A stretch of 60,924 nucleotides of DNA from an uncultured Lachnospiraceae bacterium (GTDB lineage: Bacteria > Bacillota > Clostridia > Lachnospirales > Lachnospiraceae): positions 1 to 60,924 of the forward strand of contig CANQCY010000009.1 in the NCBI GenBank assembly GCA_947591245.1. The letters are read 5' to 3'. The translations under genes were made by a program, and so were the position numbers. The notes below the pieces were generated by a model, which saw only the letters and a list, made by a program, of their open reading frames with translations, searched no databases and was not told the origin of the DNA. Below are positions 13,943 to 35,936 of this stretch, in pieces. The first letter of the stretch is position 1; each line of letters opens with the position of its first letter.

Positions 13943-14005
13943 AAAGCAAAGCATTAGAATATAGGTGGGATCGTTGAATAATTGACAATTGGAGAGGAGA
14001 TTGTT

Positions 14006-14722
14006 ATGATATACGGAGTTGTACTGGCGGGCGGCGTGGGAAACCGCATGGGCAATGTCGGGAAACCGAAACAATATCTGCTGATCGGGGATAAGCCGAT
14101 CATCATTCATACGCTTGAGAAATTTTACATGCAGAGCGACTTTGAGAAAGTTCTCGTGCTCTGTCCGCCCGAATGGCTGTCACATACGAGGAACCTGATT
14201 AAAAAGTATATTCAGGACGCGGAACGGGTCATTGTGCTAAAAGGGGGAGAGACCCGTAACGAAACGATTATGAATGCCATTTCTTATATAGAGTCAGAGG
14301 GAAAGCTTGATGAAGAGACGATTATCGTTACCCATGATTCGGTGCGTCCGTTCGTAACGCAGCGGATTATTGAGGAAAATATACGGTATGCCAGGGAGTA
14401 CGGCGCCTGTGATACTGCCGTTGCCGCCACGGATACGATTGTGTGCAGCGACGACAATGTAGTGATCAGCGATATTCCCGAGCGCAGAAGGATGTATCAG
14501 GGACAGACGCCGCAGACGTTTAAGGCATTGAAGCTGAAAAACCTGTATCAGTCCCTGAGCCCGGAGGAAAAGGCGGTTCTGACAGACGCCGCAAAGATTT
14601 ACGTCATGAAAGGCGAGAAGGTTCATATTGTGGATGGCGAAGTATTTAATATAAAAATAACGTATCCGTACGACCTTCGCGTAGCAGAGGCGCTGCTTGG
14701 GGAAGGGGAAAAGGTCAAATAG
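14006..14722 (+). CDS. tarI: D-ribitol-5-phosphate cytidylyltransferase
   Basis: An IspD/TarI-type nucleotidyltransferase of 238 residues with VLAGGVGNRMGNVGKPKQYL at the N-terminus, HDSVRPF, AATDTIV and PQTFK. IspD and TarI are close in sequence, but the next gene is TarJ-like and the flanking genes are polyol-phosphate transferases, so CDP-ribitol formation is the better call. The ATG at 14006 has GAGGAG a few bases upstream; an in-frame start at 13982 lacks a site. Confidence 0.88.
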   Translation: MIYGVVLAGGVGNRMGNVGKPKQYLLIGDKPIIIHTLEKFYMQSDFEKVLVLCPPEWLSHTRNLIKKYIQDAERVIVLKGGETRNETIMNAISYIESEGKLDEETIIVTHDSVRPFVTQRIIEENIRYAREYGACDTAVAATDTIVCSDDNVVISDIPERRRMYQGQTPQTFKALKLKNLYQSLSPEEKAVLTDAAKIYVMKGEKVHIVDGEVFNIKITYPYDLRVAEALLGEGEKVK

Positions 14723-14745
14723 ATGTATTATAAATGGAGGCAATT

Positions 14746-15801
14746 ATGCTGAATGCGATATACCGCCTTGTAGCGCCAAGACGCTTTGAAGTGGAATTTA
14801 CGGATATTGATCTGCGGAGCGGGAACGTGATCGTGCGCCCGACCCATTTGTCGATCTGCAATGCGGATCAGCGCTATTACCAAGGAAAACGTGCGGACGA
14901 TATATTAAAGCAAAAACTGCCGATGGCGCTGCTGCATGAGGGAATCGGAGAGATTGTGTTTGACCCGGAACGGGAGTTTCAGCCAGGTGAACGGGTCGTC
15001 ATGATACCGAATACTCCGGTGGAGATTTCACAGGCGCAAACGCCGTCCGACGATTTGGACGACGGGGTGATCGCCGAGAATTACCGGACGGATTCAAAAT
15101 TCCGCGCAAGCGGCTTTGACGGTTTTATGCAGGATGTTGTTGATATCCGGCGCGATCGGCTCGTGAGGCTGCCGGAGGGCATTGACCCGTGCGTTGCCGC
15201 CTTTACCGAGATCGTGACAGTCAGCGTTCATGCGCTGCGCCGTTTTGACTGCGTTGCGCATCGGCGCCGGGATGCCGTGGGGATATGGGGCGATGGGAAT
15301 CTCGGTTATATTACTGCCCTGCTCTTTCGGACAATGTTTCCGTCGTCAAAGCTGTATGTGTTCGGGATGAACCGGGACAAGCTTTCGGATTTTACATTTG
15401 CGGACGATACGTTTTCCGTTACCGATATTCCGCCGGATATCCGGCTGGATCACGGTTTTGAATGCGTGGGCGGCGAAGGCGCGCCGAAGGCAATCAACCA
15501 GATCATTGACGCCATCAGCCCGGAGGGAACCATTTCGATTTTGGGCGTTTCGGAAAATCCGGTTCCGATAAACACAAGGCTGATGCTGGAAAAAGGACTT
15601 CGGATGTTTGGCAGCAGCCGAAGCGGAAGGGATGATTTTCTCCGCACGATCGAGCTGTATGAGTCCAATCCGGAACTGCTGGAATATTTAAAAAACATTG
15701 TCAGTGCGGAATTTGAGATTCGCACGATAGATGATATGAGGCTTGCATTTGAAGCGGATATCCACAAGGATTTCGGAAAAACAATCTTGCTTTGGAAATA
15801 A
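14746..15801 (+). CDS. tarJ: Ribulose-5-phosphate reductase, TarJ-like
   Basis: A zinc-type medium-chain dehydrogenase-like protein of 351 residues that should reduce ribulose-5-P to ribitol-5-P for TarI. Seen motifs are SICNADQRYYQGKR near residue 42, LLHEGIGEIV, GERVVMIPN and the nucleotide-binding GIWGDGNLGYIT near residue 180. The usual structural-zinc cysteine cluster is absent, as in other TarJ proteins. GGAGG is 5 bases before the ATG at 14746. It directly follows tarI, giving a complete CDP-ribitol supply. Confidence 0.88.
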   Translation: MLNAIYRLVAPRRFEVEFTDIDLRSGNVIVRPTHLSICNADQRYYQGKRADDILKQKLPMALLHEGIGEIVFDPEREFQPGERVVMIPNTPVEISQAQTPSDDLDDGVIAENYRTDSKFRASGFDGFMQDVVDIRRDRLVRLPEGIDPCVAAFTEIVTVSVHALRRFDCVAHRRRDAVGIWGDGNLGYITALLFRTMFPSSKLYVFGMNRDKLSDFTFADDTFSVTDIPPDIRLDHGFECVGGEGAPKAINQIIDAISPEGTISILGVSENPVPINTRLMLEKGLRMFGSSRSGRDDFLRTIELYESNPELLEYLKNIVSAEFEIRTIDDMRLAFEADIHKDFGKTILLWK

Positions 15802-15875
15802 CGAATAATCCCGCAGCAAGCAGTGAAGACATGCGTCTGGCTCAATGTGCATGCGAGAATAAACTGGAGGTTTTT

Positions 15876-17930
15876 ATGAGTGGCTTACTTTCTAATAAGA
15901 ATAAAAGGTTTTTGAAAAAGCGAATTAAATTTTGGTTTTACTGTGTGCTGCATCCTATTTTAAATGAACATTTAATCGTGTTCGAGGCGTTCAGCGGAAA
16001 GCGCTGCGGCGGAAATTTGCGTGCGATCTATGAGGAAATGATGGAGGATCAGCGCTACCGGGATTTCCGTTTTGTTTGGATCGTGAACGATGTGGAAGGA
16101 CACAGGGACTTAAAGGTGAGGCGGCACACAAGAGTGGTAAAAAAAGATTCCCGTTCTGCCTTTATTCTGTATGCAAAAGCTAAATACTGGTTTAACAATG
16201 TGGCTCTTCCGAATTATTTGGTTCCCCGTCCTCATCAGGTGTATGTAGAGACGTGGCATGGGACGCCGTTAAAGAAATTGGGAAACGATATCGAATACGA
16301 AGTCGATCCGAGGCAGTCGCTCGCCGAAATGCATAAAAAGTATTATATTAAAGGCAAAAAGATGGACTACCTTATATCCCCGTCCCGTTTTTATACGGAA
16401 AAAATGATTTCTTCATTCCGGCTGGATAAATGCCATAAGGAAAATATCATTCTCGAGACCGGGTATCCGCGAAACGACGCGCTCTTTACCTTTACGGATG
16501 AGGACGTGAAACGGATTAAGGAGGAGATCGGCGTACCGGAGGGCAAAAAAGTCATTCTCTATACTCCGACATGGCGGGACAACCAGTTTAAAAAGGGAGA
16601 AGGCTTCCAGTACAATACGGAGCTGGATTTTGCTTCCCTGATGGAGGAACTGGGAGACGAGTATATATTTTTGTTCCGCGCCCATCATCAGATCGGGTTT
16701 AAGGACATTGCGCATGATGTGCGGGGCGTGATCGATGTGACGGAGGTGGATGACGTCAATGACCTCTACATCATCAGCGACCTTATGATTACTGACTACT
16801 CGTCCACCATGTTTGATTATGGGGATTTGAAGCGTCCGATGGTCTTCTATATGTACGATTTGGATGAGTATCAGGGTGAGATCCGTGATTTTTACTTTGA
16901 CATTCATGAGCTGCCCGGACCGATCGTGAAAACGCAGAAGGATCTCGTGCAGGCGGTCAGGGATCAGTTTGAACACTTCCAATATGACGAGAAGTACAAG
17001 GCGTTTACTGAAAAATTTAACTATCTCGACGACGCCCATTCGGCAAGACGGGTAGTGGAGGCTACCGTCAAGACGGAGTTGGGGATGCCGTTCCGCTTTT
17101 ATAAATGGGCGATCCATATGAAGAATGTCATCAGGAAGGGATTCCGTGACGCCTATATCGCATTTTCCGGCATGCTCCGCTGTATGGGGTTGTGCCGCAC
17201 AAAAAACAGCAAACTATTGTATTCGTATAAAAATAAGCACAAGGGGGAGAGATGTTTCCTCGTCGGAAACGGGCCGAGCCTGCGCATATCCGACCTTGAG
17301 GGCCTTCAGAAAAACGGGGAGATTACGTTTGGATGCAATCTTGTCACGAAAGTATTCAGAGAAACGTCCTGGCGTCCTGATTATTATTTTCTCATCGACC
17401 GTATCTGTGCGAAATTCCAGAGCGCGGAGATCAATGAGGCGATCAAGGATATTCCGTTATTTACTAATATAACGACCTACAATATTTTCCGAAACAAGCC
17501 GAGAAATCCGGTTATCTTGTACAATATAGCGAGAGATGAGTATAAGGTAAAGCGTTCGCCGCTCGCCTACTATATTCCTTCCGGCTCAACTGTTATGTCG
17601 CTCATGATTGAGATGGCGGTGTACATGGGCTTTTCAGAGATTTATCTGATCGGCTGCGACTGCACGTCGACATTTAGCGGCAATACCCACTTTATACAGG
17701 GATATACGGACGATAAGCTTAAGCAGCGTGATGCGAAGAAGATCATTGACCGGATGCATCGGCTCGGAATCGAAGGCGAAGATTATGAGAAGTTTTTCCT
17801 TGACGGTTCCATGAATGCCTATATGCTTTTGAAAGAACATGCCGTCAAGCGCGGAGTAAAGATTTATAATGCGACGAGAGGCGGAGCGCTGGAGGTATTT
17901 GAGCGCGTGGATCTGGATCAGTTTGTTTGA
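15876..17930 (+). CDS. Fusion of TagF-like polyol-phosphate transferase and DUF115 (MptE/Maf-like) domain
   Basis: Residues 1 to about 430 form a CDP-glycerol glycerophosphotransferase domain: ETWHGTPLKKLG near residue 126, YTPTWRDN, FRAHHQ and ITDYSSTMFDYGDLKRP. From about 450 to 684 there is a second domain: GERCFLVGNGPSL near 464, FGCNLV, YLIGCDCT near 592 and IYNATRGGALEVF near 664. This second part matches the DUF115 pattern; DUF115 also occurs in Maf proteins, which transfer CMP-nonulosonic acids to flagellin, and resembles sialyltransferases. The protein may therefore add both a polyol phosphate and an acidic sugar. GGAGG stands 5 bases before ATG 15876. A paralogue lies at 21731-23815. 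Confidence 0.82.
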   Translation: MSGLLSNKNKRFLKKRIKFWFYCVLHPILNEHLIVFEAFSGKRCGGNLRAIYEEMMEDQRYRDFRFVWIVNDVEGHRDLKVRRHTRVVKKDSRSAFILYAKAKYWFNNVALPNYLVPRPHQVYVETWHGTPLKKLGNDIEYEVDPRQSLAEMHKKYYIKGKKMDYLISPSRFYTEKMISSFRLDKCHKENIILETGYPRNDALFTFTDEDVKRIKEEIGVPEGKKVILYTPTWRDNQFKKGEGFQYNTELDFASLMEELGDEYIFLFRAHHQIGFKDIAHDVRGVIDVTEVDDVNDLYIISDLMITDYSSTMFDYGDLKRPMVFYMYDLDEYQGEIRDFYFDIHELPGPIVKTQKDLVQAVRDQFEHFQYDEKYKAFTEKFNYLDDAHSARRVVEATVKTELGMPFRFYKWAIHMKNVIRKGFRDAYIAFSGMLRCMGLCRTKNSKLLYSYKNKHKGERCFLVGNGPSLRISDLEGLQKNGEITFGCNLVTKVFRETSWRPDYYFLIDRICAKFQSAEINEAIKDIPLFTNITTYNIFRNKPRNPVILYNIARDEYKVKRSPLAYYIPSGSTVMSLMIEMAVYMGFSEIYLIGCDCTSTFSGNTHFIQGYTDDKLKQRDAKKIIDRMHRLGIEGEDYEKFFLDGSMNAYMLLKEHAVKRGVKIYNATRGGALEVFERVDLDQFV

Positions 17931-18771: not shown

Positions 18772-19284
18772 TTATAAATCTAAAAAATCATTGAAATCAT
18801 AGCGTTCTTTCAGTATCAAATCAATGGCCTCCCTCACCGCGGCCTCGCCGCCGGGTTTTGTGAGGATGATATCGATGAATGGCTTGAGGCTTTCAGCGCA
18901 GTCGGATGGCGCAAAAGAAATGCCGGCGGTGCGGACTGCGCTCAAATCATTCATATCGTCGCCGATGTACGCTGTCTGATCTGCGGTGACATGATATTTT
19001 TCCATGAGTTCATGAAGCTTGGCAGCTTTATTTTTTACGCCCTGGTGAAGCTCATTCAAGCCGATTTCACGGCAGCGGTTTTCCACGATTTTGGACGTTC
19101 TGCCGGTGATGATGGCGGGGGTGATGCCATAATCGTTCAGCAGCTTGATGCCAAGCCCGTCTTTTACGCTGAACGACTTAAACATCTCTCCGTCGTTTCC
19201 CATGAAAATGCATCCGTTTGTCAGGGTGCCGTCCACATCCATGGCAAACAATTTAATGTTGTCAAAATTAAACGTCTTTTTCAT
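18772..19284 (-). CDS. KdsC-like HAD phosphatase
   Basis: A 170-residue HAD-superfamily phosphatase of the KdsC/YrbI class with no cap domain. Visible motifs are the catalytic FAMDVDGTLTNG, ITGRTSKIVENR, and YIGDDMNDLSAV with the metal aspartates; GVKNKAAKLHEL is also typical of KdsC. KdsC removes phosphate from Kdo-8-P, and homologues act on sialic-acid-9-P. It is the last gene of the minus-strand operon after the aldolase and KdsB-like genes, so its substrate is probably the phosphorylated ulosonic acid made by that aldolase. GGAGG precedes the ATG. Confidence 0.87.
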   Translation of the reverse strand: MKKTFNFDNIKLFAMDVDGTLTNGCIFMGNDGEMFKSFSVKDGLGIKLLNDYGITPAIITGRTSKIVENRCREIGLNELHQGVKNKAAKLHELMEKYHVTADQTAYIGDDMNDLSAVRTAGISFAPSDCAESLKPFIDIILTKPGGEAAVREAIDLILKERYDFNDFLDL

Positions 19285-19311
19285 TCTTATCCTCCATATG
19301 CGCGCAAATAA

Positions 19312-20931
19312 CTATAAATCAGTGGCAGGTATTTCAAAACGGGATGGTGTGAGAAAATGTATCGGGCAGTCGGATTGCCTCGTATTCATGTAATCCTCCA
19401 GCATGCTCTGTACCTCCCGGTTTGCGTCGTCCGCATTTGTCGTGTTTCGTGTTTTTTCCATTTCCTTATGCATGTAGTTCACGCTTGTAGAATCGTTGCT
19501 GTAGCCGTCAAATCCGGCGATGGCGATAGAAGCGACCTCCAGCTTGTCCAAAAGCCGAAGGAGAAGGATGCCGGAATTGTCCAGCTGATCCCAGCCGCAT
19601 TTGATCAAACTGGTAAAGTCGAGGATCATCTGATTCTTTTCCTCGATATTGGTGACGTTAGAAGTCACGATTTTTTTGTATTCGCTGAAACGGCTCGCGC
19701 TTTTCCAGTAATTGTATCGCTTTTTATTGCTGAAATATACATAATTGATCGGATAATCATGGGAGAGCAGATTGACGCTGATGACAACCGGTTTTTTTTC
19801 TGCGCAGTAATCCAGTATCTGATCCTTATGGCTGACGATGCTGTGTCCGGGAAGAAGCATGACGACGTCCTTTCCCTGCAGACTGTTTCTCAGAGCGGAT
19901 ACTTCCTTTTCATCATTCCGGATTGCGCCCATATATTCGATATATGTCTTTTCAAGCAGATCATAATCGTAGCGTTTTCTCGCTTCGCCGCCGATGCGAT
20001 TGAGCAGATAATTGATATCGCGGCTGGAAATGCCCGCTTTCGCCGTCAGGTACGAAATATTATTGACATGCGCGCTGTAGGAGCCCGCCAGGAAATACGG
20101 TATGGAATATCCCCAGCTGCAGCTGTTGCGGATGCCGTCGATATAATTGTCGATCAGGTCGAGAACGGTATCAATGTCGTATCCGGAATTGTATTTGCGG
20201 TTCATATATTGCATGACAAGTTCGGTATTTGTATTTCCGGCGCCGCGCCCCATTCCTCCCATCGTTGCATCAATTACGATTTTGCGGAGCCCCTGCGTCA
20301 TGTCGATAAACTCCTGAGAAAGCGAGAAAGACATCTGCAGGTTGTTATGGGAGTGGAATCCGATGCGGGAAGCAGAGTTTAAATTCCGGTTGATCAGATA
20401 AAACACGCGCCGGAGGTCTTCCTTATACATAGACCCGAATGTATCCACGATAGAGAAAGCATATGGTTCAATCGGATTGACCATTTCGATCAGTTCCAAA
20501 AGCTCTGCGTCAGTATAGCCGAGAATATCCACCGGTTGTACGTAGAGTTTGTATCCTTTCGCCGCGATATCTTTACAGAAATCGATGACGTCATAGCGTT
20601 CTTTTTTAAAGAAGCAGGCGCGGACGCCGTCGATTGAAGTTCCGTCAAATGGTTCCAAATTTGAGATTGTGTATCTGCTGTAGTCGGCAAGGCAGACAAA
20701 AGACGTCTGTCTGCGATCTTCCGGCAAAAAGGAACGAAGCTGCGCCGCATTATTAAAAATGGTGCTTCCTTTTACATGCGGCTCATCTTTTAAGAAGCCG
20801 CACTCTACGACATCGATTCCGCTGTCAGCCAATCCCTTGATCATTCCCTTTATGACAGTGTTTCCAAATTGTGCATCTACGAGATAACCGCCATCGCGTA
20901 GTGTACAGTCCAGCAATTGCACTCGTTTCAT
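19312..20931 (-). CDS. HMGL-like pyruvate aldolase with extra C-terminal domain
   Basis: Residues 1 to about 290 are an HMGL-type TIM-barrel aldolase like 4-hydroxy-2-oxovalerate aldolase: LLDCTLRDGGYLV at 6-18 (metal Asp and catalytic Arg), SIVDTFGSM, RIGFHSHNNLQMS near residue 190 (HxH metal pair) and GMGRGAGN. A linker of helices follows. From about 350 to 539 there is a separate alpha/beta domain starting GKDVVMLLPGHSI, with VISVNLLSH and IAGFDGY, recalling the glycine-rich opening of DUF115/sialyltransferase-like domains. Such enzymes condense pyruvate with an aldehyde. Between a KdsB-like and a KdsC-like gene it probably builds a 3-deoxy-2-ulosonic acid. GAGGT is 4 bases before the ATG. 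Confidence 0.8.
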   Translation of the reverse strand: MKRVQLLDCTLRDGGYLVDAQFGNTVIKGMIKGLADSGIDVVECGFLKDEPHVKGSTIFNNAAQLRSFLPEDRRQTSFVCLADYSRYTISNLEPFDGTSIDGVRACFFKKERYDVIDFCKDIAAKGYKLYVQPVDILGYTDAELLELIEMVNPIEPYAFSIVDTFGSMYKEDLRRVFYLINRNLNSASRIGFHSHNNLQMSFSLSQEFIDMTQGLRKIVIDATMGGMGRGAGNTNTELVMQYMNRKYNSGYDIDTVLDLIDNYIDGIRNSCSWGYSIPYFLAGSYSAHVNNISYLTAKAGISSRDINYLLNRIGGEARKRYDYDLLEKTYIEYMGAIRNDEKEVSALRNSLQGKDVVMLLPGHSIVSHKDQILDYCAEKKPVVISVNLLSHDYPINYVYFSNKKRYNYWKSASRFSEYKKIVTSNVTNIEEKNQMILDFTSLIKCGWDQLDNSGILLLRLLDKLEVASIAIAGFDGYSNDSTSVNYMHKEMEKTRNTTNADDANREVQSMLEDYMNTRQSDCPIHFLTPSRFEIPATDL

Positions 20932-20950
20932 GTTTACCTCATTTCTGCAA

Positions 20951-20967
20951 GGCGAACCGCGTTCGCC
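20951..20967. repeat. Perfect hairpin between the kdsB-like and aldolase genes
   Basis: GGCGAAC (20951-20957) and GTTCGCC (20961-20967) form a 7-bp stem with a CGC loop in the 53-base gap. There is no T-run on the minus strand, so it may tune mRNA stability or translation of the aldolase rather than stop transcription. Confidence 0.4.
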
Positions 20968-20984
20968 CTGTCTTATTGCGCTTG

Positions 20985-21725
20985 TTAGTCCAGTTTATCG
21001 ATTCCCTTGATGACCCGTTCTACTTTTTCAATATGTTCCGGCAGGTCTACGCCGATCGAAGAATGTTTTGTCTCCTTGAGCCGCATTTTGTAACCGCGTT
21101 CCATTGCGCGCAGCGGTTCAATCCCCTCTCCGAGTTCCAGCTCGGTCTGGGACATCTTAGAGAATTCTTTCAAAAAATCGCGTTTATACGCATAGATTCC
21201 CACATGCCGGAATACTCGCGCCCGGTTGCCATCCTTTACATTGGACGGAATGACAGAGCGTGAAAAATACATGGCGTCGCCTTTTTGGTCGGTCACGACT
21301 TTGACTGTGCTTGCCGCTTCGATTTCCGCGGGATCCGTAATTTCTTTTTTCAGGCTTCCGAATGTAACCGACTCGTCCTCAAAAAAGATGGAGATGACCT
21401 CGCGTATCATTTCGGGGTTGATAACCGGCTCGTCGCCCTGAATATTGATGAATAAATCGCCGCTCACTTTTTCTGCCACCTCGGCGACGCGGTCGGAGCC
21501 GGTTTCATGCCGGTCGGAAGTCATGATTACTTTCATATTATGTTCATCGCAGGCGGCTTTAATACGCTCGTCATCCGTAGCGACATACACCTCGTCAAAT
21601 TCGCTGACTTTCATCGCCTGCTGGTATACCCACCAGATCATGGGTTTTCCGCATATATCCACGAGAGGCTTCCCGGGAAAACGGCTGGATTTGTATCTTG
21701 CCGGAATAACTCCTATTATTTTCAT
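20985..21725 (-). CDS. KdsB-like CMP-ulosonate (CMP-Kdo) synthetase
   Basis: A 246-residue cytidylyltransferase. It opens MKIIGVIPARYKSSRFPGKP, followed by ATDDERI, MTSDRHETGSDRVAEVAEKV, FINIQGDEPVINPEMI, HVGIYAYKRDFL and EGIEPLRAMERG, the standard KdsB series. KdsB activates Kdo with CTP. True Kdo is rare in Gram-positives, so the substrate may be Kdo or a related 3-deoxy-2-ulosonic acid. On the minus strand AAAGGA is 8 bases before the ATG at 21725; an ATG three codons earlier overlaps that site. The gene lies 5 bases after the TagF-DUF115 gene. Confidence 0.9.
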   Translation of the reverse strand: MKIIGVIPARYKSSRFPGKPLVDICGKPMIWWVYQQAMKVSEFDEVYVATDDERIKAACDEHNMKVIMTSDRHETGSDRVAEVAEKVSGDLFINIQGDEPVINPEMIREVISIFFEDESVTFGSLKKEITDPAEIEAASTVKVVTDQKGDAMYFSRSVIPSNVKDGNRARVFRHVGIYAYKRDFLKEFSKMSQTELELGEGIEPLRAMERGYKMRLKETKHSSIGVDLPEHIEKVERVIKGIDKLD

Positions 21726-21730
21726 TTTCC

Positions 21731-23815
21731 TCATCCTTTCTGATTTTTGTTAGCGTTCAATACGTCTTCAAGGGCGATTCTCGGGAAAATTTCCAGATTT
21801 CCGCCCCGTGTGGCGTTGTAAATACGGATTCCCTTTTTGTCCGCATATTTTTTCAAAAGGCGGTAGACCGCAAGGGATCGGTCGATAATGTGTTTCCCAA
21901 TCTGTTCCGTCGTCATATTTTCCTGCTGCGTACGTGTTTTTATACGTGAAATATCGGTTTGGGCGATTTCTTTCGTCGTATAATTTTCAGTAAAATGCCC
22001 GCCCGCTACGTGGGGATTGGTACAGTCCACGCCTAGCAGATAGATCTCGGAAAATCCCATGTGGAAAGCAAATTCCATAGCAAGGGTCATAACGGTCGCT
22101 TTCACCATGCAGTAAGCAAATAGGTTGCCCTTTACTTTATACCGTTCGCTCGCAACTGTATGGACATATGTCGTATCCGGCGGCCGTTTTGTCATTCTCT
22201 GATACGTCTTTTCAATGGTAAACAGCGGCGACTTGACATTTTCATAGAGCTCATCCTTGAGCCTGGTCGCATAAATGCTGTCCGAAACGCAGTGAAAACT
22301 CGGGCGCCAGTCCGTCCTGTCAAATATTTTATACACCATGTTTGTTCCGAATGTATACTCGTCTTTTAACAGGTGCAGATCATTCGGGGACAGGCTGGGG
22401 CCGTTGCCGATCAAAAAGCACCGTTCCCCCTTGTGCGAGTCTTTCATGCGCATCAGCTTCCGTCCGTTTTCGCTTAAAAACATACCATGCTTATTAAACC
22501 AGCCGGTGATGTTGTAGCGTACGATAGAATAGACGATGCGCACGCGGTTGATCATTTTCTTATAGAAAAGTACAAAACGCTCCCACGGGCCTTTCTGGTG
22601 CGCCGGGATGGCGATGCACTGCATGATCGCCCGGTGCGCCGCCTCGCCGTCTTCCCAAACATTGAATTTATCGTGAAACGCCTGGTATTTCTGATCAGAG
22701 TCGTAATCGAACGAGTCCAGAAGATCTCGGATCGCATCTGCCAGCTGTTCTTCTGTGGCGGTGATCGGACCGGGCAGTTCTGATATGTCAAAATAAAACC
22801 CGCGGATGTTTTTTTCATACTCATCCCGATCGTACATATGGAATACCATCGGGCGCTTGAGATTGCTGAAATCAAACATGGTAGAGGAATAATCCGTTAC
22901 CATCAGGTCGCTGATCATATAGAGCTCGTTAATATCGTCTACTCCGGTTACATCAATGATGCGTTCCGAATTTTGGATGATGCCGGAAATCCCGTTCTGA
23001 TGGTGGGCGCGAAATAAAAGGACGCAATTCTCCGGAAGAAGGCTCATCACCTTCTGCAGGTCGACCGGGCTTTTGTACTCAAATCCCCGTTCTGCGCTGT
23101 GGTCGGTATCCCGCCACGTCGGTGTGTACAAGATGATCTTGCTGTTTTCGGGGATGCCGAGTTTCCGGCAGATCCGGCTCGTATCTTCAGAAGTAAAGCG
23201 GAACAGGGCGTCATTTCTCGGATAACCGCAATTGACAAATGCTTTCCGCTTTTTTTTGTCCAGACCGAAAGCAGAAGCGATTTTTTCATTGTAATACGGA
23301 GAGGGCGAGAGAAAGCGGCTGACCTTTCTTCCCTTTTTTTTGTAGCGCCTGTGCATGCGTTCCTTTGATTGCCTGGGGTCGCTGTCTGTCTCAATGTCGC
23401 AGCCCAGCCGTTTGAGCGGCGTGCCGTGCCATGTCTCAATATAGACCTGATGCCGTCCGGGTATGAGAAAATCAGGAACGCTGACATTATTTATCCAAAA
23501 ACGGGACGCAGCATAATACCTGAAATAATCGGAAGATCCTTTTTTTACCAAAAGAGTGCGGGGCTTGTCCGCCAGCCAGCTATGCGCTTTCGGATCGGTA
23601 AATGCCCATACGAATGTATAGTCGCGAAACAGATCGTCGTCAACCATAGCGTCATAAATCGCCTTTACGCTGTCGCCGCACCGTTTGCCATGATAGGACT
23701 CAAACATCACCATTTTATCATGCGTCATGAAGAAGATGCGGTAGCATTTATATTTAATTCTGTTTTTCAGCCAGGACAGATCCTGCCTGAGTTTATATTT
23801 TAACCGTTGCTTCAT
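21731..23815 (-). CDS. Second TagF-DUF115 fusion, first gene of the CMP-ulosonate operon
   Basis: A 694-residue paralogue of the protein at 15876-17930 with the same order of domains. The polyol-phosphate transferase half has IETWHGTPLKRLG near residue 130, YTPTWRDTDH and VTDYSSTMFDFSNLKRP. The DUF115 half has GERCFLIGNGPSL near 468, FGTNMV, YLLGVDCTNPH and IYNATRGGNLEIF near the end. It leads the operon with kdsB-like, aldolase and kdsC-like genes, which suggests that its second half uses the CMP-sugar these genes make. The ribosome site is weak (GAAAGAATGAGA). The two paralogues are well diverged at DNA level, so the duplication is old. Confidence 0.82.
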   Translation of the reverse strand: MKQRLKYKLRQDLSWLKNRIKYKCYRIFFMTHDKMVMFESYHGKRCGDSVKAIYDAMVDDDLFRDYTFVWAFTDPKAHSWLADKPRTLLVKKGSSDYFRYYAASRFWINNVSVPDFLIPGRHQVYIETWHGTPLKRLGCDIETDSDPRQSKERMHRRYKKKGRKVSRFLSPSPYYNEKIASAFGLDKKKRKAFVNCGYPRNDALFRFTSEDTSRICRKLGIPENSKIILYTPTWRDTDHSAERGFEYKSPVDLQKVMSLLPENCVLLFRAHHQNGISGIIQNSERIIDVTGVDDINELYMISDLMVTDYSSTMFDFSNLKRPMVFHMYDRDEYEKNIRGFYFDISELPGPITATEEQLADAIRDLLDSFDYDSDQKYQAFHDKFNVWEDGEAAHRAIMQCIAIPAHQKGPWERFVLFYKKMINRVRIVYSIVRYNITGWFNKHGMFLSENGRKLMRMKDSHKGERCFLIGNGPSLSPNDLHLLKDEYTFGTNMVYKIFDRTDWRPSFHCVSDSIYATRLKDELYENVKSPLFTIEKTYQRMTKRPPDTTYVHTVASERYKVKGNLFAYCMVKATVMTLAMEFAFHMGFSEIYLLGVDCTNPHVAGGHFTENYTTKEIAQTDISRIKTRTQQENMTTEQIGKHIIDRSLAVYRLLKKYADKKGIRIYNATRGGNLEIFPRIALEDVLNANKNQKG

Positions 23816-23863
23816 CGTCTCATTCTTTCTATTTTCCGGGAATCCAATCCCAGCATTTTATAA

Positions 23864-23890
23864 CATGTGTACCAGTCTTTGGTACATATG
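23864..23890. promoter_or_regulatory. Inverted repeat at the start of the minus-strand operon transcript
   Basis: Left arm CATGTGTACC (23864-23873) and right arm GGTACATATG (23881-23890) pair with one G-T wobble across a 7-base AGTCTTT loop; the inner six pairs are perfect. It lies just downstream of the minus-strand -10 box and spans the expected transcription start, so it can be an operator or a 5-prime stem-loop. Confidence 0.6.
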
Positions 23891-23895
23891 TATTT

Positions 23896-23923
23896 ATTTT
23901 ACCATAATAAATGCGTATGTCAA
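23896..23923 (-). promoter_or_regulatory. Promoter of the CMP-ulosonate operon
   Basis: On the minus strand TTGACA (23918-23923) and TAAAAT (23896-23901) are 16 bases apart. It is the only good promoter in front of 23815 and should drive the four-gene minus-strand operon. It stands back to back with a plus-strand promoter. Confidence 0.7.
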
Positions 23924-34081: not shown

Positions 34082-34115
34082 AATGGCAAATGCATGCAGA
34101 AATTGGAGGAAGAGG

Positions 34116-35936
34116 ATGAAGATAAAACTATCGAACTATGTGGCGCAGTTTTTGGTGGATCACGGTATCGATACCGTATTTACGGTAACGGGCGGCGGCG
34201 CCATGCATTTGAATGACGGGCTGGGCCATCAGGACGGGCTTCATTGCGTGTACCAGCATCATGAACAGGCATGTGCGATTGCGGGGGAGGCTTATGCCAG
34301 AATGCATAATAAAATAGGCGCGGTATGCGTGACTACCGGGCCGGGCGGCACGAATGCCATCACGGGAGTGGCGGGCGGCTGGCTGGATTCTATACCGATG
34401 CTAGTGATTTCCGGGCAGGTTCGTTATGATACGACGGCGCGAAGTACGGGGCTTCGCATACGCGCGATGGGAGACCAGGAATTTGATATATGCCGCGCGG
34501 TAGAATGCATGACAAAATACTGCGAGATGGTGATCGAGCCGAACGATATCAGATATTGTCTGGAAAAGGCGTTGTATCTGGCGCAGACGGGCAGACCGGG
34601 ACCGTGCTGGCTAGATATCCCCCTGAATGTTCAGGGCGCTTATATCGAGGCCGAAAATCTGCGGGGATTTGACCCGTCAGAGTGCGGGGACGAGCATCCG
34701 AAGGCTCCTTCGGCGGAAACGATACGGTCGATTTTAGAAAAAATCAAATCGGCGAAACGTCCGGTCATAAATGCCGGAAATGGAATCCGGATATCCGGCG
34801 GGTATGAGGAATTCTGCCGCCTGGTGGAAAAGCTGAATATACCGGTTGTTACGGGGTGGAATAGCATCGACCTGATCGCAGACGAGCATCCGCTGTATGT
34901 CGGGAGAGGCGGAATAATGGGCGACCGCGCCGGAAATTTTGCGATTCAGAACAGCGATCTGGTGCTTTCACTGGGAAGCCGTTTGAGCATCCGCCAGGTG
35001 GGGTACAATTATAAGACATGGGCGAGAGAGGCGTATACGATCGTTGTCGATGTCGACAGCGAGGAATTGAAGAAACCGACGATACATGTGGATATGCCTG
35101 TATGTGCGGATGTAAAAGACGTCATGAGGCTTATGAATGAAGAACTCGGGGACTCGGCGCTTTCTGCCGATCCGTTCTGGCTTGAAAAATGCGCCCACTG
35201 GAAGAAAACATACCCGGTTGTGCTGCCAAAGCACTATGAGCAAAAGGGAGCGGCGAACGTCTATGCGTTTATCAAAGAGCTGAGCAGGACGCTTCCCGAA
35301 GGATATGTGACCGTTGTAGGGAATGGATCGGCGTGCGTAGTGGGAAGCCACGGCTATGAGATAAAAAAGGGACAGCGGTTTATCATAAATTCGGCGATTG
35401 CCTCGATGGGTTATGATCTTCCGGCGGCGATTGGCGCATGTGTGGCGGAAGGCGGAAAGGAAATCGCATGCCTGAGCGGGGATGGCAGCATCCAGATGAA
35501 TATTCAGGAACTGCAGACGATCCGGACGAACCGCCTGCCGATCAAAATCTTTGTCATTAACAATAATGGTTACCATTCGATACGTCAGACGCAGTCCAAT
35601 TTTTTCGGCGAACCGTATGTCGGGATCGGGCCGCAGAGCCATGACCTGGAATTTCCGGATATGGAAAAGATCGCCTATGCGTATGGGTATCCGTTTTTCC
35701 GCTGCGAGAGCAATGAAACATTGGCAGGCACGATCGCTCAGGTGTTTCAGACGGAAGGGGCGGCGATCTGTGAGGTCGTCGTATCCACAGATCAGAATTT
35801 TGAGCCGAAGTCGGCGACGAGACGATTGGAAGACGGAACGCTCGTTTCGCCTCCGTTGGAAGATCTGGCGCCGTTTTTGGACAGAGAGGTATTTTTGAAG
35901 GAAATGATTATAGAGCCGGTTCGCACGCCGGAATAA
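34116..35936 (+). CDS. ThDP-dependent enzyme, YerE-like (acetolactate-synthase fold)
   Basis: A 606-residue protein with the three domains of acetohydroxyacid-synthase relatives: VTGGGAMHLND, catalytic Glu50 in QHHEQACAIAGEAYARM, TGPGGTNAITGV, and the ThDP/Mg motif GDGSIQMNIQEL...NNNGY near residues 455-482. A biosynthetic acetolactate synthase would not sit in a sugar locus. With rfbF, rfbG and rfbH in the same window and an SDR reductase next door, the closest known role is YerE, which adds a two-carbon unit from pyruvate to a CDP-3,6-dideoxy-4-ketohexose on the way to yersiniose. The substrate is inferred. GGAGG lies before the ATG at 34116. Confidence 0.8.
   Translation: MKIKLSNYVAQFLVDHGIDTVFTVTGGGAMHLNDGLGHQDGLHCVYQHHEQACAIAGEAYARMHNKIGAVCVTTGPGGTNAITGVAGGWLDSIPMLVISGQVRYDTTARSTGLRIRAMGDQEFDICRAVECMTKYCEMVIEPNDIRYCLEKALYLAQTGRPGPCWLDIPLNVQGAYIEAENLRGFDPSECGDEHPKAPSAETIRSILEKIKSAKRPVINAGNGIRISGGYEEFCRLVEKLNIPVVTGWNSIDLIADEHPLYVGRGGIMGDRAGNFAIQNSDLVLSLGSRLSIRQVGYNYKTWAREAYTIVVDVDSEELKKPTIHVDMPVCADVKDVMRLMNEELGDSALSADPFWLEKCAHWKKTYPVVLPKHYEQKGAANVYAFIKELSRTLPEGYVTVVGNGSACVVGSHGYEIKKGQRFIINSAIASMGYDLPAAIGACVAEGGKEIACLSGDGSIQMNIQELQTIRTNRLPIKIFVINNNGYHSIRQTQSNFFGEPYVGIGPQSHDLEFPDMEKIAYAYGYPFFRCESNETLAGTIAQVFQTEGAAICEVVVSTDQNFEPKSATRRLEDGTLVSPPLEDLAPFLDREVFLKEMIIEPVRTPE

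Follow-up and report, generated by a model that had tools for sequence, protein, structure and literature searches.

Positions 1 to 60,924 of contig CANQCY010000009.1 from an uncultured Lachnospiraceae bacterium (GCA_947591245.1), a 60,924-nucleotide stretch referred to here as the window, contain a four-gene operon on the minus strand (18772-23923). We consider it likely that this operon makes a cytidine monophosphate (CMP)-activated 3-deoxy-2-ulosonic acid by a route that does not depend on phosphoenolpyruvate (PEP). It encodes, in order, a fusion of a TagF-type polyol-phosphate transferase with a PF01973 (DUF115/Maf_flag10/MptE-like) domain, a KdsB-like CMP-sugar synthetase, an HMGL-type DRE-TIM metallolyase resembling the pyruvate aldolase DmpG (hereafter the aldolase), and a KdsC-like phosphatase. 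An initial annotation of the sequence had read these genes as the steps of a 3-deoxy-D-manno-octulosonic acid (Kdo)-like pathway in which a pyruvate aldolase takes the place of the PEP-using synthase.

The operon is real: one promoter serves four genes, and the coordinates, families and gene order of the initial annotation were confirmed. The first two genes overlap by 4 bases, while 53 bases separate the synthetase gene from the aldolase gene and 27 bases the aldolase gene from that of the phosphatase. The promoter (TTGACA and TAAAAT hexamers, 16 bases apart) ranks in the top two of the 15 promoter-like sites found between 17800 and 24300, where shuffled sequences lead one to expect 8.9, and identical boxes precede the first operon gene of L056, L057, L058 and L074, which are close relatives. 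Immediately downstream of the -10 box, at 23863-23891, lies a 13-pair inverted repeat that may serve as an operator or form a hairpin; it was not seen by eye in the upstream regions of the relatives.

The aldolase was found at 73-91% identity in 21 of 38 other genomes of the same genus that we searched. The initial annotation had proposed that its neighborhoods be compared for conserved kdsB and kdsC linkage, and this linkage was borne out: at the 21 loci the aldolase is adjoined by KdsB in every case and by KdsC and a PF01973 protein in 19 cases each, with the four absences falling at contig ends. The constant core consists of the PF01973 protein, KdsB, the aldolase and KdsC.

A wider sample was formed by the best 80 of 571 confirmed aldolase relatives in species genomes. 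It leans to close relatives and includes many metagenome bins, along with five loci (L076-L080) closely related to the window. We call a locus type I when its context is a CMP-sugar synthetase and type II when it is a glucose-1-phosphate cytidylyltransferase and/or an acetolactate-synthase-like thiamine enzyme. A synthetase gene lies at most 150 bases upstream on the same strand for 49 of the 80 aldolases (23 KdsB-type and 26 NeuA-type) and within 6 kb at 5 further loci, bringing type I to 54. The NeuA-type synthetases are shorter and NeuA/PseF-like; one representative scores above the PF02348 cut-off and another below the PseF cut-off. Four loci belong to neither type, and at two of them (L149 and L155) KdsC lies next to the aldolase. 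Within 4 kb, 35 of the 54 type I loci, 5 of the 22 type II loci and 2 of the 4 others encode a KdsC- or PGP-like phosphatase. The type I stretches also carry a PF01973 gene (13), a PF07388 (polysialyltransferase)-like gene (10) or a member of an unnamed family, c9 (20), with at least one of the three in 38 stretches, as against none at the 22 type II loci; linkage alone makes family c9 a candidate transferase. Conversely, the acetolactate-synthase-like thiamine enzyme occurs at 2 of 54 type I and 21 of 22 type II loci. The RfbF profile also matches IspD/TarI genes, and RfbF flags at type I loci are partly false. Type I aldolase-synthetase pairs occur outside Lachnospiraceae in Helicobacter (L094), Gastranaerophilales (L096), Paludibacteraceae (L139) and Paenibacillus (L148); three of these four lie outside Bacillota, which suggests transfer between phyla.

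As a control, we used 23 loci from this genome and its relatives that encode a paralogous aldolase (approximately 330 aa, with 27-30% identity). None encodes a KdsB, NeuA, KdsC, PGP-like phosphatase, PF01973, c9 or PF07388-like protein; one locus (L169) gave an RfbF-profile match of 46 bits. The difference in synthetase linkage, 54 of 80 against 0 of 23, corresponds to a Fisher p of 1.1e-9, which is indicative only, as the rows are related. Mere co-residence in glycan clusters was rejected as an explanation of the linkage because none of the 23 paralogue loci holds the partner genes. These loci need not be glycan clusters, however, and the control thus speaks to the fold family more than to the type of cluster. 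Together with the absent or unlinked KdsA and NeuB and the resemblance of the PF01973 domain to sialyltransferases, both described below, this linkage supports the substitution of a pyruvate aldolase for the PEP-using synthase in an ulosonate-type pathway.

In a quickly built tree with 84 rows, type I linkage extends through the main branches, and all but one (L144) of the 22 type II aldolases form a single nested clade. The KdsB-type and NeuA-type labels alternate along the aldolase tree with 8 and 13 changes, respectively, changes to other labels included, compared to shuffled means of 21.2 and 22.5; well-supported branches force at least 6 changes for the KdsB-type and at least 9 for the NeuA-type label. 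The aldolase thus keeps its place as the partner synthetase swaps, which is best explained if the products belong to one class, that of free 2-ulosonic acids. Acetolactate-synthase-type enzymes take 2-oxo acids as acyl donors, and therefore both contexts fit an enzyme that makes 2-oxo acids; at type II loci, the donor that the aldolase provides may be a longer 2-oxo acid. At type II loci (e.g. L097, L100, L105, L119 and L144), genes for a 4,6-dehydratase and a DegT aminotransferase often stand alongside, a context that presumably resembles the yersiniose-type pathways for branched cytidine diphosphate (CDP)-sugars.

Kdo and nonulosonic acid biosynthesis begins with the PEP-dependent synthases KdsA and NeuB, and genomes without both are therefore read as making no such sugars. 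We searched 22 genus genomes, this one included, for these enzymes and for the arabinose-5-phosphate isomerase KdsD; this assembly is 85% complete, and 16 of the 22 reach at least 90%. As the initial annotation had claimed from the window, KdsA and KdsD are missing: KdsA (TIGR01362) had no match at E<=0.001 in any of the 22 genomes, and no KdsD (TIGR00393) exceeded its cut-off in any of them (best 111.7 versus 203.7 bits, partial). Partial KdsD-like matches of 86-112 bits occur in three of the genomes (G015:C58, G013:C31, G013:C211 and G028:C7); we assume that they may be SIS-only arabinose-5-phosphate isomerases of the Bacteroides kind, or other isomerases. NeuB (PF03102) had no match in this genome or in 6 of its 21 genus relatives, two of which (G024 and G028) are 98% complete. 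The sole PF00793 match of this genome is AroF-like (TIGR00034, 240.6 versus 173.2 bits).

Outside the genus set of the window, 29 of the 54 type I genomes were tested for the same two synthases. KdsA over the cut-off was lacking in 27, the other two being Gastranaerophilales and Paludibacteraceae bins (G155 and G165), and 20 gave no NeuB match above 50 bits. Lactimicrobium massiliense, a cultured type I carrier, is one of those without NeuB above 50 bits; Niameybacter massiliensis and Proteocatella sphenisci are further cultured species with an aldolase of this family. When five NeuB and two KdsA proteins were compared by tblastn to 120 stretches and the window, nothing was returned at E 1e-3; the same queries served as a positive control, with identities of 28-62% among the NeuB proteins and 54% between the KdsA proteins. 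Among the 120 stretches are near-duplicates (e.g. L058/L077), and six (L068-L073) carry neither a type I nor a type II aldolase. A kdsA or neuB gene coupled to the operon genes, to which the initial annotation had pointed as contrary evidence, was thus looked for, and on the counts in the genomes tested we rejected KdsA or NeuB elsewhere as an obligatory source of the ulosonate.

Judged by its sequence, the aldolase qualifies as a DRE-TIM metallolyase/class II pyruvate aldolase, with the PF00682 fold (64.4 bits versus a cut-off of 29), an Asp and an HxH as metal ligands and an Arg before the Asp. Its structure model has a mean predicted local distance difference test (pLDDT) score of 88.8. The top solved structure, both by sequence profile and by Foldseek, is PDB 3dxi, the putative aldolase BVU_2661 of Bacteroides vulgatus, which shares the LDCTLRDGGY motif; that entry comprises the N-terminal domain only and is titled 'putative'. 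Next come the DmpG-type 4-hydroxy-2-oxovalerate aldolases, above isopropylmalate and homocitrate synthases and HMG-CoA lyase. The residues R12, D13, H193 and H195 are kept in all 76 type I and II aldolases, and we take their DmpG counterparts to be the metal ligands (Asp and two His) and the Arg beside the Asp. The aldolase has in common with DmpG/BphI the fold, the TLRDG motif and these four residues; it differs in being only 16-17% identical to 1nvm by structural alignment, in one active-site position discussed below, in an additional C-terminal domain and in its operon, which has a glycan gene context and no aldehyde dehydrogenase. Residue 83, which we place opposite Leu-89 of BphI by a presumed numbering offset, is Asp in the window and in 22 of 22 type II members; among the 54 type I members it is D in 28, L in 10, A in 9, N in 5, and M and R in 1 each. 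Passages of PMC3962088 describe BphI Leu-89 as a chain-length residue. Since residue 83 varies among type I members, it does not identify the acceptor. The C-terminal domain gave no match in a Pfam search and has conserved motifs of its own (PG.S, N, SN, R, TSN, DNS and AGFDGY). Alignment of the full aldolase profile to the PF01973 profile by hhalign covered this domain over 172 columns with an E of 0.008 and a probability of only 4.9, a hint that the domain may be related, in degenerate form, to the PF01973/GT42 fold and may have a nucleotide-binding origin.

The synthetase passes TIGR00466 (kdsB; 196 versus 155.2 bits) and NF003952 (307.1 versus 193) and falls below the equivalog NF003948 (196.7 versus 281 bits). 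Its top PDB sequence match is the CMP-Kdo synthetase 1gq9, which we take to be the Escherichia coli capsule enzyme. R13, R18, K22, D101 and D230 are invariant across the 40 members aligned, a set that, like the 120 stretches, contains near-duplicates. By position they correspond to residues for cytidine triphosphate (CTP) and metal in Aquifex KdsB given in passages of PMC3149649. The Gln of the LEQLR motif, common to the four canonical KdsB proteins aligned, is Pro in the window and is lost in 40 of 40 members, which may suggest a sugar other than Kdo. The phosphatase passes the KdsC subfamily TIGR01670 (165.4 versus 106.95 bits) and lies below the equivalog NF007019 (162.1 versus 208) and the keto-deoxynonulosonic acid (Kdn)-9-phosphate phosphatase NF058599 (118 versus 180 bits).

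In the initial annotation, the whole first protein was the transferase. We revise this assignment: seven of 14 genus relatives with wide context lack the catalytic half of TagF, and the transferase of the sugar is therefore most likely the PF01973 domain and not TagF. In these 14, the first gene has the long TagF-PF01973 form seven times and a short form of 415-427 aa seven times (L060, L061, L062, L063, L064, L066 and L067). The short forms, two of which were aligned, retain a TagF-like N-terminus and, at 62-67% identity, the PF01973 domain, but have lost the catalytic half of TagF. The protein of the window scores below the NCBIfam TarF cut-off (257.3 versus 550 bits), and WHG and RAHH motifs can be read in its translation. 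Passages of PMC11666461 describe the His of a TagF-type WHG motif plus a second His. When the PF01973 profile was run against all PDB sequences, the ten best matches were nine alpha-2,3(/8)-sialyltransferase chains and 5mu5, at E values of 1.2e-5 to 8.9e-4. One of the sialyltransferases is 9c08, and the others are presumably of the Cst-I/Cst-II type; 5mu5 is labeled uncharacterized, and we take it to be a Maf structure. The domain shares with the Maf/Cst-II (GT42-like) CMP-nonulosonate transferases the PF01973 (Maf_flag10) family, a GNGPSL motif and this profile similarity. It differs from them in its fusion to TagF and in its acceptor, which is likely a polyol-phosphate polymer rather than flagellin or lipooligosaccharide. 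According to passages of PMC11339370, the PF01973 domain of Maf resembles Cst-II, and both N-acetylneuraminic acid (Neu5Ac) and Kdo are transferred from CMP donors by a Maf of Clostridium.

We infer the reactions, acceptor, product and polymer from these families and their context. The aldolase would add a metal-bound pyruvate enolate to a phosphorylated aldehyde, giving a 2-oxo-3-deoxy-acid phosphate. Glyceraldehyde-3-phosphate, erythrose-4-phosphate or a pentose-5-phosphate from central metabolism are candidate aldehydes; such a source is favored because most type I aldolases are accompanied by no gene cluster beyond the synthetase and phosphatase. The KdsC-like phosphatase would then strip the phosphate, pulling the reversible aldol step forward, and the KdsB-like enzyme would couple the dephosphorylated sugar acid to CMP. 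The aldol step would in this way be driven by the release of phosphate and the consumption of CTP, as it is by PEP in KdsA and NeuB. The PF01973 domain of the first protein would move the ulosonate onto a wall or capsule polymer, to which the fused TagF domain may add polyol phosphate from a CDP-polyol, and the polymer may combine both units.

Several observations weigh against a PEP-independent ulosonate pathway. NeuB is present in 15 of the 21 genus relatives, always on a contig other than that of the aldolase, where a separate contig of a draft genome is no proof of distance, and it is found in 9 of the 29 type I genomes tested. Among the best 80 relatives, 22 have CDP-glucose and/or thiamine-enzyme genes as their context, and no KdsC- or PGP-like phosphatase was found within 4 kb at 19 of the 54 type I loci, some of which reach contig ends. 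The aldolase falls below the NCBIfam cut-off for 4-hydroxy-2-oxovalerate aldolase (TIGR03217, 73.8 versus 286 bits), and we found no demonstrated reaction for any enzyme of its branch. At the position of DmpG His21, which we take to be catalytic, the window has Tyr16, a residue shared by all 76 type I and II aldolases, and the chemistry may therefore differ. Lastly, Foldseek with the PF01973 model ranks 8sd5, an archaeal HPPK (pterin pyrophosphokinase), first, with no sialyltransferase among 50 rows. The NeuB genes on separate contigs, the type II contexts and the replaced His21 would also suit an arrangement in which NeuB or another synthase elsewhere makes the ulosonate and the aldolase has a different task in the polymer, such as Claisen-type or aldol extension of another sugar. 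We consider this improbable: NeuB is without a match here and in six relatives, including the two that are 98% complete, KdsA is missing throughout the genus set, 9 of the 14 tested genomes with NeuA-type synthetases lack NeuB above 50 bits, the synthetase directly adjoins the aldolase in 49 of the best 80 relatives, and the type II context fits a maker of 2-oxo acids too.

The product could also be Kdo itself, with the aldolase joining pyruvate and arabinose-5-phosphate to Kdo-8-phosphate. The synthetase and phosphatase pass TIGR00466 and TIGR01670, and 1gq9 is a CMP-Kdo synthetase, but no KdsD/KpsF exceeds its cut-off in the 22 genus genomes (partial matches only in G013, G015 and G028), the LEQLR Gln is lost, the equivalogs NF007019 and NF003948 are not reached and NeuA-type synthetases adjoin the same aldolase lineage. 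Kdo is thus an unlikely product, and the proposal of Kdo or another 3-deoxy-2-ulosonic acid made in the initial annotation is supported as to the ulosonate-type pathway, not as to Kdo itself. DmpG-type aldolases serve catabolism, and a cleaving enzyme that disposes of or salvages external ulosonic acids, with KdsB activating the scavenged sugar, would accord with that role. Against this very improbable alternative, the operon sits among glycan assembly genes and has a KdsC-type phosphatase, for which salvage of a free ulosonate would presumably have no need, and sugar transporter or sugar kinase families were matched by none of the 30 window proteins scanned (up to 41035). The synthesis of a CMP-activated 3-deoxy-2-ulosonic acid without PEP remains the reading that we favor.

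The neighborhood of the operon is a wall or capsule polymer cluster, and its main features are listed in Table 1. Among the genes at 13982-17930, which could supply CDP-ribitol, the D-ribitol-5-phosphate cytidylyltransferase scores 363.4 bits against the NF001183 cut-off of 166, and the zinc-type dehydrogenase is called TarJ-like by position only. The second TagF-PF01973 fusion (15792-17930, plus strand) lies near the cytidylyltransferase, so that the cluster has two bifunctional-looking transferases. GDP-mannose-type genes, LicD proteins and glycosyltransferases are also found among the scanned proteins, and a thiamine-pyrophosphate enzyme is encoded within the cluster at 34083-35936 on the plus strand. 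The closest named relatives of the aldolase among the best 80 belong to Eubacteriaceae, Lachnoclostridium and Clostridia, and the host is therefore Gram-positive by affiliation.

Table 1. Positions of the operon, its domains and promoter, and the neighboring opposite-strand genes in the window
Feature	Position	Strand	Details
TagF-type polyol-phosphate transferase fused to PF01973 (DUF115/Maf_flag10/MptE-like)	21731..23815	-	694 aa; PF04464, PF01973
TagF region, residues 31-396	22628..23725	-	PF04464, 316.9 bits
PF01973 domain, residues 454-599, proposed CMP-ulosonate transferase	22019..22456	-	42 versus 34.6 bits
KdsB-like CMP-ulosonate synthetase (putative)	20985..21734	-	249 aa; PF02348, TIGR00466
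DRE-TIM metallolyase, DmpG-type pyruvate aldolase (HMGL-type; predicted) with extra C-terminal domain	19312..20931	-	539 aa; PF00682
Aldolase catalytic domain, residues 1-335	19927..20931	-	R12, D13, H193, H195 align with DmpG R17, D18, H200, H202
Aldolase C-terminal domain, residues 340-535	19327..19914	-	~195 aa; conserved motifs
KdsC-like haloacid dehalogenase (HAD) phosphatase	18772..19284	-	170 aa; TIGR01670
Operon promoter, sigma-70-type, TTGACA - 16 - TAAAAT	23896..23923	-	Extended TG; 11/12 hexamer matches
D-ribitol-5-phosphate cytidylyltransferase, zinc-type dehydrogenase, second TagF-PF01973 fusion	13982..17930	+	NF001183 for the cytidylyltransferase

The operon resembles the pathways for Kdo (KdsD-KdsA-KdsC-KdsB) and nonulosonates (NeuB-NeuA) in having a phosphatase, a CTP-dependent activation and a proposed CMP-ulosonate transferase in the same order of steps. 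It differs in that KdsA, a linked NeuB and a KdsD over the cut-off are missing in the genus and a DRE-TIM aldolase stands at the C-C bond-forming step, and in its setting, a Gram-positive wall-polymer cluster instead of lipopolysaccharide. Without KdsA, KdsD and a linked NeuB, the operon works like these pathways but is not a member of them. The teichulosonic acid of the Streptomyces coelicolor wall, which contains Kdn according to passages of PMC7831098, is likewise an ulosonic acid polymer of a Gram-positive wall. That polymer is phosphate-free and carries a C9 sugar, whereas the TagF domains suggest polyol phosphate here. Ulosonic acids in Gram-positive walls are thus already known, and the C-C bond-forming step would be what is new. 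In the open-access literature, as far as titles and the openings of abstracts go, we found no paper on the pairing of this aldolase with a synthetase.

A broader proposal, for and against which we see about equal grounds, is that these aldolases form a large unrecognized DRE-TIM family that provides a third, PEP-independent ulosonate route beside KdsA and NeuB. The family would be widespread in Bacillota and present in other phyla, would work with two types of synthetase and would make undescribed sugar acids, which a fusion of TagF and a CMP-ulosonate transferase would here build into a polyol-phosphate wall polymer, and a nested branch would feed 2-oxo acids to thiamine enzymes for branched CDP-sugars. 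Should the aldolase route prove right, many Gram-positive bacteria make CMP-activated ulosonic acids that current annotation misses. A good part of the carriers among the best 80 relatives come, to judge by their record titles, from animal guts, where such surface polymers may meet the host. A common aldolase family without an assigned function would gain testable substrates, and a one-pot enzymatic route from pyruvate to new CMP-sugar acids would become possible.

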